DNA of 64,000 nt. Origin: Cudoniella acicularis. Its lineage: Eukaryota; Ascomycota; Leotiomycetes; Helotiales; Helotiaceae. The stretch is taken from assembly GCA_013054445.1 (NCBI GenBank), contig JAAMPI010000019.1, forward strand, positions 33,455-97,454, written 5' to 3'. The translations under genes were made by a program, and so were the position numbers. Below are positions 27,698-33,363 of the stretch, one piece after another (positions within the stretch are counted from its first letter, which is position 1; each line of letters begins with the position of its first letter). The notes below the pieces were generated by a model. It had not been told where the DNA came from. It saw only the letters and a program-made list of their open reading frames with translations, and did not search any database.

Positions 27698-28471
27698 ATG
27701 GCGACTACTGGAGAAGATTCTACTCCACGCAATTTTGATAGTGCAATTGCCCCGCAGATTAGGCTGTCCCTGGAAAAACAAAGAGGATTCCAGGATTCGA
27801 ACAAGCGCAAAGCGAAAGAATCGGAAAAATCGGGTTCTACAAAAGAAATCAGCATAAGTGTTCCGGCACAACCTCCTAGTCTTTTGAGTCTACCTTCATT
27901 ATAGCCATACCATCTCAGTCTTGATAATAGCTTGAAGGTCGCTTGAGATGGACCCGACGACCCAGAAAATCCAAAGAACTGGGCAGGTGATCAAAAATGG
28001 TGAGCGATCCTCTCCATCTCTGGATTTGTCCTCATGAGCCCACTTCCCACCACGATCGTAGCTCCAGCGCTCAATCTCATTGCTTTAGAACTCAACATCA
28101 CCAATGCCGCTCAGAAGCCCATAGTCCTCTCAATATTCCTGTTGGGTTTTGCTATTGGGCCAATGTTTATCAGTCCGTTATCTGAGATATTTGGCAGAAC
28201 ACGTATTCTGCAGAGTTTCAATCTTGGGTTTCTGGATTTTAATACAGCCTGCGGCTTTGCAAAGACCGGTCCACAAATCTTATGTTTCAGATTCTTCGCG
28301 GGTCTGTTCGGGAGTTGTTCCGTCGGTGTGAGCATGATCATCAAATGTCCCTAATTATTAAGCAGAGCTGATTTTTCGTCACTCTAGATCGGTGCTGGGA
28401 CTCTTGGAGATCTTTTCACGGCGAGCGAGCGCGGGAAGGCCATGGTTCTCTGCCTGATCTGGTGATTAGTG
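27698..28471 (+). pseudogene. 5' remnant of a DHA1-type MFS multidrug transporter
   Basis: The reading frame starts at 27698 with a hydrophilic N-tail. It continues through GPDDPENPKNWAGDQKW, the pre-helix-1 signature of fungal DHA1 carriers, then APALNLIALELNI, SIFLLGFAIGPMFISPLSEIFGRTR and, after a short intron (about 28329-28387), IGAGTLGDLFTASERGKAM. Stops break it: TAG at 27901, TGA before DGPDD and TGA after DQKW, the last two standing where Trp is expected. The coding similarity ends abruptly near 28470, after about four of twelve helices. The rest of the gene is absent and the promoter of the Zn2Cys6 regulator follows at once. Confidence 0.75.
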
Positions 28472-28530
28472 AGCCTCAGGCCCCTAGTTCGGCTGTGTGC
28501 AGTTAGGTTTTTAGCTTCGTTAGGGTTTCA

Positions 28531-28577
28531 CTCCGACGGAGACGGACTGACCTTGCTGACCTCAACTCCGTCGGACA
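28531..28577 (+). promoter_or_regulatory. Composite CCG-N-CGG module upstream of the Zn2Cys6 gene
   Basis: The module contains TCCGACGGAGACGGA, then CTGACCTTG and CTGACCTCA, then ACTCCGTCGGA. It therefore carries two everted CCG-N1-CGG pairs, the type of site bound by Zn2Cys6 dimers. It ends 58 nt before the regulator ATG (28636) and just before an AT-rich TATA-like stretch. Nearly the same module, inverted, lies upstream of the DHA2 transporter (30995-31040). This suggests autoregulation plus control of the transporter. Confidence 0.6.
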
Positions 28578-28635
28578 TCTTATATTGAGCCGTCTCCTCC
28601 CCTTCACATTTCATCTTCATGGATATGGACTTAAC

Positions 28636-30731
28636 ATGGCTGAATACGTTAATCCCCGAGCACAGGCTTGTCAGAATTGTGTCAAGGCCAAGGCCAAATG
28701 CTACAACCACGCCGACGGAAAATGTGAGAGGTATGCTAGCAGTATGCGATGATCTCACATGGATTATGCTTATACTTTCGCAGGTGTAATCGGTTAGGCA
28801 GAGATTGCGCAATGCAAGCACCTGCAATGCGAAAGCGGAAAGCGGTCAAGACAAAGTAAGCATCGCAGATGTTCCAATGATGCTCGAATTCACGTGATGA
28901 ACAAATACTGATTGAGATGTAGTCGAGAGGATCAAGCTGAACGCATCGCTGAGTTGGAACAAAAACTGGAAGATTTGGCATCACGCGTTGTTTCTTCTCA
29001 GCCCTCTCCAATATGTGGGGAAAGCCCAAGTTTTGTTGTGATCCCTGATTCCACCGGTATACAGTCAGATGGTACAAATTCAACGCCTCATCTTCTTTCA
29101 CACCGGCAGCAATCAATAGCCTGGCAAGCCACTCCTTCGATTCTCCCTAGAGGGACAACCGGAATCCCAGTCGATGCAGAAGAGCTATTGACTATTTTTC
29201 GCCGTGACTTGGCACGGCAGGTGCCATTCATCTCACTTCCCGGACAAGCAACTGTCCACAGTCTCTCAAAAGAAAGGCCCTTCCTCTTTCGAGCTATTAT
29301 CACCGTTGCTTCATATCATGATTCGGTATACCAGTCTGCTTTGGGTCAAGAATTTCTCAGATATCTCACTGAGCATCTCATCTTACAAGCACAAAAGAAC
29401 CTGGACATGCTTCAAGGACTTTTAGTATATATCTCATGGTCTGTCCTCCACCTAACATTTTGTCACAAGAGCACGAGATTAATACGCCTGGTTTTCATAG
29501 GTATAATGGCATGTTCGTTGGTAGATCGCAGATCACTACCCTTCTGACCATGGCTTTCTCCTTGGTGGTTGACCTGCACTTGTATTTCCCTATGACTAGT
29601 TTCGAAAACCATGACAGGTTTTTGAATGAGATGAAAGGCATCATTTCGGCGTACCATGTCACCTGGACTCGTAAGTCGGAGCCTTCCAGGGAAGAAAAGA
29701 GAGCCATTCTGGGATGCTTCTATCTATTCTCAGCTGTATGACATTCGATAGGATCTGTATGAATGGTTTCGCTAATGTGTATTAGGTTTCTGCGATATTT
29801 TGTCGCATCAATCCTCTGCGATGGACCCCGTATATGCAACACTGCCACGATGAAATTTTGAACCATCCGGAAAATGAAGGCGACATTTATCTCGCTCATC
29901 TTTCCGCCTTGCAGCGGATCGCTATGAATATCAGACACAGTGACCCTCGAGAGTGTCCTTCACAGCCACGGAGCTGGAATGCGGCCGCCGGAGTGCATGT
30001 CAAGTTGGTGATGTCAGAGTTGCAGAGATTTCAAGCCTCGCTGCCAGAAAATCTCCAACAAGATCGTAAGAACTCTGCTCTATTTATACCTCGCATTTAT
30101 AATAATAGTTATGGCTTAACAAAACCTTTTTGTAGCCCTGCTCCTCATGCATTGCAATTCTGTCGAGATGAATGTTTATGAGATCTGCTTCTCCATGCCA
30201 CCTACCATTCCCGTCGATACACCCACCCTTCAAAGAGCCGATGCCTTAGTGGCGTGTCTCAAAGCCACTCGAGCGATTACGGATGTTTACCTCTCCATCA
30301 GTGTCGATTCTATTGCGTACCTCAATTTTCGTTCAGTATTCATGGCGCAGATGTATGTTGCCTTGGTGACCCTCTCCAAGTTGGCAGTATTTCGTGCCGA
30401 GGATTGGGAGGTGAACAATGTCGAAACGACATTGTATGTTTTCACAATTCTCAATCGTGTGATTCAGATGACAGATGGCGCGAGTGCTCGATATGATTTG
30501 AGGGATGATGATAAGCCATGGCTACAGATCAGTCAGAGAATGCGGCAGCTAAAGATTGGGTTCGAGCGTCTGCTGGCGAACGAAAACACTCCTCTTGCTT
30601 CAACAATACCGGTCGAGAAGGAGGGAGACGGCGCTGCGAATACATACATGCCCTTACTTTGGAGTCAGTTTGATTTGTTGGGTGACGAGTTCTGGCAAGG
30701 CTTTCCGGATGACAATGATTTAATGCATTGA
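28636..30731 (+). CDS. Zn2Cys6 transcription factor
   Basis: Six exons (28636-28730, 28784-28855, 28923-29438, 29501-29735, 29786-30065, 30136-30731) keep one frame and give 597 aa; introns are 50-70 nt. The zinc cluster is C12-x2-C15-x6-C22-x7-C30-x2-C33-x6-C40 (ACQNC...KAKC...KCERC...RDC), split by intron 1. A basic linker (MRKRKAVKTK) and a short leucine coil (RIAELEQKLEDL) follow, as in dimeric binuclear-cluster factors. The middle region (PFLFRAIITVASYHD, LQGLLVYISWYN, ITTLLTMAFSLVVDL) is the usual fungal regulator architecture. No stop or missing residue is seen. It lies between a broken DHA1 carrier and a DHA2 carrier; shared promoter modules suggest it controls the latter and itself. 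Confidence 0.9.
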
Positions 30732-30994
30732 CATACCTTCTTGTGAAGGAAAGGGTCTTGATTAGAACGAGCTGTTTAGTAATACGAATAGGTGTAGACA
30801 TATTGTTGACAAGCACTGCAGTTAGAACTTGAGCCTCTTACATATTACACATATGGTACCTCGGTATGTTTTCTGGCACGAGTCTCAGCTTTATGCAACT
30901 TTAATTGTGCATGACTTCATGTTGTTACGGACTTTTCGACCCTATTTTCGTTATTTAGTGAAGGGTTTATGTTGACAATCAAATTAGCCCGTGG

Positions 30995-31040
30995 GCCGTC
31001 GGAGTGAGGTCAGGATCTCTGACTCCGTCTCCGTCGGACA
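30995..31040 (-). promoter_or_regulatory. Composite CCG-N-CGG module upstream of the DHA2 transporter
   Basis: Read on the minus strand it contains TCCGACGGAGACGGA, a 10-nt spacer, CTGACCTCA and CTCCGACGG. The order and spacing match the module 59-105 nt before the ATG of the Zn2Cys6 gene. It ends 124 nt before the transporter ATG (31165) and also has two CCG-N1-CGG pairs. Confidence 0.6.
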
Positions 31041-31164
31041 CATCATTTCAAAACAACCATTCGAAGGCAATAAAATATAACGTGCCCCAAAAATATTCAT
31101 TCAGATCCTCATCGATTCGACTCTGAAGCACAGATTATCGTGCAGCGCTTTCCCAATAGCCAAG

Positions 31165-33363
31165 ATGAATAGTTCTAATACCGCAATTGCTGAATCGCAG
31201 CAAGCCGGCCATCTCATAGATGAAGAGAAAGAGCGAACACCCGACTCAAGCATCGACATTAATAACAACATTAATAATGAGGTGACAGTGGATGAACCGG
31301 AATTACTAGACGGGTATCAACTTTATATGGTCGTTTTCGCAATTTCTTTGGCTGGATTTTTGTACAGCCTGGATGTTACTATCATTGTTACTGTGAGTTC
31401 AGATCTATTATCGCAACGCTTGGAGTCAAGCGTAGTCTCAGAATTTGCATGCTGATCTCCTCCTAGGCTGTCCCTGTGATTACCACCCACTTCCATACCA
31501 TCAAGGACATTGGTTGGTATGGGAGTGCATACCTCATCACATTGTAAGCATTTCCCCTTCTCGGGTGCTTCATCTCCAGTTCATATGGACCTCTTGCTTA
31601 TCTCTCCTCCTATTTCAGATGCGCTTGTGCTCCTCTCATCGGAAAGCTCTACCAATTTTACAATTCGAAAGCAAGTCTCAACCTTCCGAGGCCCTCCTCG
31701 TGCCCATTTCCTGGGATTTCATGGTGCTTTTGCTAACCATAAGCATTTCGTTCTTATAGATCACATACTTTATCTTTATCGCCATCTTCGAGATTGGTTC
31801 TCTGATTTGTGGAGTCGCGCCATCTTCAACGGCTCTTGTCGTCGGTCGTGCTGTGGCTGGAATCGGCGGAGCAGGAATCTTTAGTGGAGGCCTTACAATT
31901 GTGGGAACTTCAGCACCAAAAGAGAAGCGCTCGCGTAAGTGAAAATTTCTATCTCATAGCTCTGGAGCCGGGACAATAATCAAAAGATGAATATATACTA
32001 ATCACATGGCAGCGGAACAGAACTCGTTGCGTTAATTTATGTCTTTTCCATGCTAGGAAGCGTTGTGTCTCCAATCCTTGGTGGCGTTCTTACCGAAAAG
32101 ACGTCCTGGAGATGGTGTAAGTCTAACTATTCTTTTTCTTTCCTCGTCTGGTGCAACTAGCAAAGAAAGAACAAGTCTCACGGGGCACTAGGCTTCTATA
32201 TTAATTTACCGGCTGGCGCAATCACTTTGATCGTCCTTACCTTCGTTCGAATCCCCGAAAGCAGAGAGAAGTCCGAGAAAAAGCCCACGCTATACGAAGC
32301 CGTTAACCGTCTGGATCCAATTGGGTTTGCCTTGTTTGCACCAACTTGCATCATGGTCTTGCTCGCTCTACAGTATGGTGGTTCAACATATGCTTGGAAC
32401 TCAGTCACCGTCATAGGTCTTTTCGTTGGGGCTGGTGCTACCCTGATTGTCTTTCTCTGCTGGGAGAATAGACGGGGGGGATACGGCTATGGTACAATTA
32501 TCCATTCTTCGTCAACGAGTCGTTTACTCGAGTTGCCTTGTTGCCATGGTTCAGTATGGGTCACTGAATATCTTTGCTTATTATTTGCCAGTCTGGTTCC
32601 AGACTGTCTTGGGAGTCAATCCGATTCGAAGTGGTGCATACTTCATGGCCACTGCAGCAACACTGATAGCTTCAACTCTGGTGACTGGAGTCCTAGGTAG
32701 GCTTCATCCTCAAACTTTGTGTTTTCAAGCTCTACGTATTTGCTGACATTTATTCTGCTATGGTGTAGCCGCAAAGCTAGGTTCACCTATCATATTCTCC
32801 ATTATTGGAAACGCACTCGCTGCCATCGGTGGCGGTTTAATGAGCACGTTCACTCCATCAACTCGCACCGGTATCTGGGTGGGCTACCAGATCCTTACTG
32901 GGGCTGGTCGCGGTATGACAGTGCAACAACCGATCGTCGCAGTTCAAAACACCCTTGAGCCGTCACGAATGGCAGTCGGTACATCCATGATACTTTTCTG
33001 TCAATTTTTCGGAGGAGCTTTGTTCTTGGCTCTCGCAGAAACAGATTTCAGTAGCTCGTTGCGCTCAGCTCTTAAACAATACGCACCCGAGGTAGATGCT
33101 AACTTGATCACTGACGTGGGTGCTGCTGGGGTGAAGAAAGCCGTAATGAGTCAGCAGCTACAAGGTGTGCTGAAGGCGTATAATCAGGCTATTACGAACA
33201 CGTTTGTAAGTCTTGCAGTGTTGCTAGTTCTCAATTGTTGGCAATGGTTAATTGATTATAGTATCTTGGTTGTGCTGCTTCTGGGCTGGCTTTTCTAGTA
33301 GCATGGGGCATGGGATTCGCAAGGGTGAAGAAAGATAAGCCTAGCGGTCGCGAAGAAGTTTAA
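31165..33363 (+). CDS. DHA2-type MFS drug:H+ antiporter with a one-base frameshift
   Basis: Eight exons: 31165-31392, 31467-31543, 31619-31670, 31760-31934, 32021-32116, 32192-32696, 32769-33205, 33262-33363. They encode about 556 aa with a 14-helix DHA2 pattern: [60 protein letters not shown] joined to [13 protein letters not shown] (motif C region), [31 protein letters not shown]. Intron 3 (31671-31759) is of the GC-AG type (AAA|GCAAGT, branch TTGCTAACC). In exon 6 a run of seven G (32474-32480) shifts the frame. With six G, CWENRRGD continues into [14 protein letters not shown] and all downstream exon phases fit. So it is either a sequencing error or a very recent inactivation. Likely exports small toxic molecules. 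Confidence 0.85.

Follow-up and report, generated by a model that had tools for sequence, protein, structure and literature searches.

A candidate operator module common to the promoters of a zinc-cluster regulator gene and an adjoining DHA2 efflux pump gene in Cudoniella acicularis

Introduction

Does a zinc-cluster regulator that adjoins an efflux pump gene control both that pump and itself, and is the site through which it might do so visible in the two promoters? Fungal loci in which a Zn2Cys6 regulator lies beside a DHA2/TRI12-type efflux pump are known, and the same two gene types adjoin in the 64,000-nucleotide stretch of Cudoniella acicularis DNA analysed here (the window). The locus differs from those in that no secondary-metabolism backbone gene was recognised in a Pfam scan of 35 of the 49 open reading frames of at least 130 aa, a scan that may miss genes made of small exons. 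Reading the window's letters, the original prediction held that the two promoters carry one composite module, that the regulator acts on itself and on the pump, and that the inverted arrangement might also mark the ends of a mobile unit.

Results

Two Modules in Inverted Orientation

The predicted architecture is confirmed in the sequence: a common order of 15-mer, 9–10 nt spacer, CTGACCTCA and CTCCGWCGG, in opposite orientation at the two promoters, with two everted CCG-N1-CGG pairs in each segment. As predicted, 58 nt separate the end of the first segment (28531-28577) from the regulator ATG at 28636, and 124 nt separate the end of the second (30995-31040) from the DHA2 ATG at 31165. Within them we delimit modules of 43–46 bp. 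Module M1 (28532..28577, + strand), upstream of the regulator gene, reads TCCGACGGAGACGGA, a 9-nt spacer, CTGACCTCA (28556..28564, +), A, CTCCGTCGG and ACA; module M2 (30996..31038, − strand), upstream of the DHA2 gene, reads TCCGACGGAGACGGA, a 10-nt spacer, CTGACCTCA (31005..31013, −) and CTCCGACGG. The 15-mer is exact in both, at 28532-28546 (+) and 31024-31038 (−). The everted sites of M1 are CCGACGG at 28533..28539 and CCGTCGG at 28568..28574; those of M2, read on the + strand, are CCGTCGG at 30996..31002 and CCGTCGG at 31031..31037. The CCGWCGG core starts are exactly 35 bp apart in M1 and M2 alike. Each module holds five CGG/CCG half-sites, that is, one CGG beyond the two everted CCG-W-CGG sites, and M1 alone has, by inspection, a perfect 10-bp inverted repeat, TCCGACGGAG...CTCCGTCGGA. 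By eye only, TATA-like stretches follow both modules on the + strand: TTATATT (28580..28586) just 3′ of M1, and ATAAAATATAA (31070..31080) about 30 bp after M2.

Six of the ten CCGWCGG occurrences in the window fall inside 28320-31037. An additional CCGACGG lies at 28712-28718, inside the part of the regulator gene that codes for the zinc cluster, and a CCGTCGG at 28320 lies within what appears by eye to be an MFS-like pseudogene with in-frame stops (27900-28510), which ends shortly before M1.

Similarity Against Chance in the Window

Allowing up to 2 mismatches, we count the 15-mer twice in the window, where shuffled sequence gives a mean of 0.07; CTGACCTCA by itself is not significant there (2 matches, shuffle mean 0.46, and 2 or more in 8 of 100 shuffles). 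Two of four alignment-type tests were weak, and stricter alignment separated the modules. The ungapped 46-mer comparison gave an identity of 29/46, equalled in 12 of 1484 random pairs, a poor separation that we put down to the 1-nt offset of CTGACCTCA between the modules. A gapped score with weak gap costs again gave poor separation: among 3000 shuffles 197 were as high, and among 2962 random pairs 257. We attribute this to the scoring, whose gap costs were too weak for an informative alignment. The two 300-bp promoters, aligned locally with gaps and in inverted orientation, scored 22 against a random-pair mean of 10.5, a score reached by 5 of 5937 random window pairs (two of them AT-rich, with GC 0.15 and 0.08, one with a C run and two dispersed-repeat-like). 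That alignment spans the module only, and similarity stops at the module borders. Among the random test windows, 23564-23863/51327-51626 and 1584-1883/34060-34359 have inverted stretches in common (scores 52 and 30), which are probably dispersed repeats.

Occurrence in the Genome

We searched the C. acicularis genome (53,198,242 bases in 1836 contigs, the window's contig being 97,454 bases), taking pattern counts as lower bounds and the reversed pattern as control. CCGWCGG-N0-30-CTGACCTCA was found in 2 places in the 53,198,242 bases, both at M1/M2 (control 2), and CTGACCTCA-N0-30-CCGWCGG in 4 places, 2 of them at this locus (control 0); CTGACCTCA-N0-2-CTCCG has 3 places, again 2 here (control 1). 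Pairs of CCGNCGG 10–40 bp apart occur in 34 places (control 68 forward), among which only M1 and M2 have the 28-bp gap. The flanks of the modules (179 and 305 bases) are single-copy. Such a genome search had been proposed with the original prediction as its check, and the outcome, with the motif combination at these two promoters only, favours cis-regulation. Similarity that ends at the module borders, together with single-copy flanks, is what would be expected of a site kept by selection and not of a recent duplication.

The exact 15-mer has 3 places in the genome (control 0). The third, on contig C1638, is coding: the open frame around it continues into WD repeats, and upstream of this copy is an open reading frame with NPHP3_N/NACHT matches. 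Allowing up to 2 mismatches raises the count to 87 places, fewer than the 164 of the reversed control, and degenerate copies therefore mean nothing. Among these 87 we inspected near-copies on C132, C1593 and C327. The one-mismatch copy at C132:10303-10324 (L043:303-324) agrees with M2's first half at 21 of 22 bases; it is apparently coding and in no promoter, lying inside the − strand open reading frame 12-362 of L043. That frame alone has no Pfam match and looks by eye like the second exon of a short-chain-dehydrogenase-like gene; the open reading frame upstream of it scores 24.8 bits for adh_short (cut-off 26.6). The match is probably due to chance. The same contig also carries a Zn_clus open reading frame (25.3 bits). 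The C1593 copy is a match without extension, and CTGACCTCACTCCG on C327 has no adjoining CCGNCGG. On C932 (L062:1501-1516), CTGACCTCACCGTCGG is followed after about 175 nt by an ATG, and the first exon that starts there is bZIP-like by eye. The CCGNCGG pair is absent from nine loci with weaker regulator relatives on 8 other contigs, a result we regard as neutral.

The Regulator, the Pump, and Their Apparent Linkage in Relatives

Regulator and pump genes stand in tandem, both on the + strand. The Zn2Cys6 regulator gene (28636..30731, +) has six exons (28636-28730, 28784-28855, 28923-29438, 29501-29735, 29786-30065 and 30136-30731), with borders set by eye, and encodes 597 aa, open throughout. 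Its six cysteines have binuclear-cluster spacing (C-x2-C-x6-C-x7-C-x2-C-x6-C, residues 12-40), and by eye there is also a basic stretch and a likely coiled coil. Pfam Zn_clus scores 17.2 bits on the first 122 residues, against a cut-off of 21, and Fungal_trans scores 22.2 bits on the regulator, against a cut-off of 23. Searched against solved structures, the regulator profile first matches PPR1 (1pyi, E 0.005) and then, weakly, Leu3 (2er8, E 0.03). Its best relative is 57% identical with 99% of the query covered, and close named relatives, 43–58% identical, come from Lachnellula, Phialocephala, Mollisia, Mollisiaceae, Acephala, Hyaloscypha, Coleophoma and Talaromyces; no relatives were found in viral and prokaryote contigs. 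Of 11 aligned close relatives, 8 (P0001-P0004, P0006, P0008, P0009 and P0011) are nearly identical to the regulator from its start up to the third cysteine, P0007 diverges ahead of the first, and the zinc-cluster domain is missing from the models P0005 and P0012.

The DHA2-type MFS efflux pump gene occupies 31165..33360 (+), its end taken from the tblastn match of its relative P0044. Pfam TRI12 scores 29.2 bits on the open reading frame 32161-32700 (cut-off 23.2), and P0044 itself has an MFS_1 match at 1.6e-31.

Locus tags and contig entries suggest that regulator and pump are linked in Mollisiaceae sp. DMI_Dod_QoI and in Lachnellula occidentalis. In the former, EG329_001283 (regulator, P0006) and EG329_001282 (pump, P0043) have consecutive tags and both list a longest contig of 132,760; in the latter, a longest contig of 25,376 bases is given for regulator P0005 and for pump P0044 alike. 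Linkage is drawn for 2 of 12 regulator relatives with E < 1e-120, the pump matches being the best 120 of 2704. For the sulfite-oxidase-like neighbour, the best 120 of 2631 matches include neither of the contigs taken to carry the linked pair, which leaves a larger conserved cluster unsupported on that side. Among those sulfite-oxidase-like proteins, P0192, filed as Candidatus Bathyarchaeota, sits among fungal relatives and is possibly fungal contamination.

Discussion

We consider it probable that M1 and M2 are two instances of one operator and that through it the neighbouring Zn2Cys6 regulator controls two genes, its own and that of the DHA2 pump. The operator would be an upstream activating or repressing site used at both promoters, with one regulator dimer on each CCG-W-CGG (extended, TCCGWCGGA), which would place two dimers on each promoter at a distance of 35 bp; CTGACCTCA and the additional CGG may provide further contacts or bind a second factor, and the outcome would be autoregulation and pump control by one regulator. 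That the neighbouring regulator is the binding protein, that its dimers adopt this geometry, and that regulation follows are points we infer from the sequence. The proposal that the factor regulates itself and the pump is accordingly retained in graded form: the restriction of the motif combination to two promoters and the pairing suggested in two relatives argue for it, while the identity of the binder is drawn by inference. Counting against a common operator, M1 and M2 differ in strand and in distance from the ATG (58 versus 124 nt). We would go further only tentatively, in suggesting that the module could be a fixed-phase composite operator for two dimers, with everted N1 sites set at an exact distance of 35 bp across a second-factor CTGACCTCA, and private to one regulator–pump pair, as a dedicated one-locus circuit in Helotiales.

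A different protein might be the binder. If the modules were a common operator for some other zinc-cluster factor, or for a zinc-cluster factor together with a bZIP-like one at CTGACCTCA, the regulator would be a target, and features of CTGACCTCA would fit: it is exactly conserved while the spacers are not, it is not itself a CGG half-site, and its TGACCTCA is one base away from the CRE, TGACGTCA. The CTGACCTCACCGTCGG found about 175 nt before the bZIP-like-looking first exon on C932 points the same way. A dispersed regulator should, however, have more targets, and the order CCGWCGG-then-CTGACCTCA is found at this locus only; we think this alternative unlikely.

The inverted orientation of the 15-mers would also suit terminal repeats of a mobile unit carrying the regulator. 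The original prediction, which raised this reading, added that no target duplication is visible; that is not strictly right, as both 15-mers are immediately adjoined on their outer side by a 3-bp CAC (28529-28531 and 31039-31041; chance about 1/64 for that length). The end of the by-eye MFS-like pseudogene shortly before M1 would suit this reading too. Several copies would be expected of DNA transposon ends, yet both flanks are single-copy. The regulator gene, the only one recognised inside, takes up 2.1 of the 2.5 kb between the modules, no transposase was recognised by eye or in the Pfam scan of open reading frames, and similarity goes on inward as separate motifs. Recent mobility also fits poorly with the apparent pairing of the two genes in two relatives: the pair seems to be common to relatives at 52–57% protein identity, so any such unit would be old. 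We therefore disfavour this part of the prediction and hold it highly improbable. Chance, or an old inverted duplication without function, is a very unlikely source of the modules as well. The 21/22 match in an apparently coding exon on C132 does show that rare matches occur, and the promoter alignment score was equalled by those 5 of 5937 random window pairs. Against this, two adjacent promoters have three motifs in one common order, which is found nowhere else in the genome, and a neutral copy would not retain motifs while losing spacers and flanks.

If the modules are indeed one operator, as we favour, its sites can be set beside those of known zinc-cluster proteins. The Saccharomyces cerevisiae Lys14 site is cited as TCCRNYGGA in PMC3601966, which gives a different motif for Candida Lys14. 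The sites here are likewise everted CCG-N1-CGG with T/A flanks, and by inspection three of the four fit TCCRNYGGA fully, the misfit being M2's second site, which ends in C. They differ from the Lys14 site in that two of them stand 35 bp apart with CTGACCTCA at a regulator–pump pair, and the likeness concerns the sites. Binding at everted sites is well established for Zn2Cys6 proteins. LeuB binds CCGN4CGG in vitro via its Zn2Cys6 DNA-binding domain (PMC6221358). Everted CGG half-sites are common to Leu3/LeuB and this locus, and Leu3 is also the second, weak structure match of the regulator profile; the difference lies in a spacing of 1 in all four sites here against 4 in CCGN4CGG. Judged by their letters, the sites resemble Lys14's TCCRNYGGA more than Leu3's CCGN4CGG. 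CCGNCGG was not found together with Zn2Cys6 or an everted repeat in the literature searched. The arrangement is of a known kind; the site itself is new. A regulator family with no specific functional name among the matches listed now has a concrete candidate site, and the shared-operator reading leads to the prediction of a private circuit linking a single regulator to a single pump.

The pump side of that circuit carries a complication. The pump's reading frame breaks in a G run at about 32477 in this assembly (32470-32480), and the frame in which relatives align runs to 32478, with a different one taking over at 32477. The break is either an assembly error in the G run or a real loss. With its frame broken in this assembly, the pump may not work here, and if the break is real, the operator at the pump may be a relic. 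The public model of this pump, C. acicularis protein G7Y89_g534, stands at 86% over the query, probably because it skips an exon pair. Four public pump models (P0041-P0044, from Cudoniella, Mollisiaceae and two Lachnellula species) skip a stretch within 31467-31759. The skipped stretch (31467-31543 and 31619-31670) is open here and reads like a second MFS helix, and the intron after it would be GC-AG, a type that gene callers may miss.
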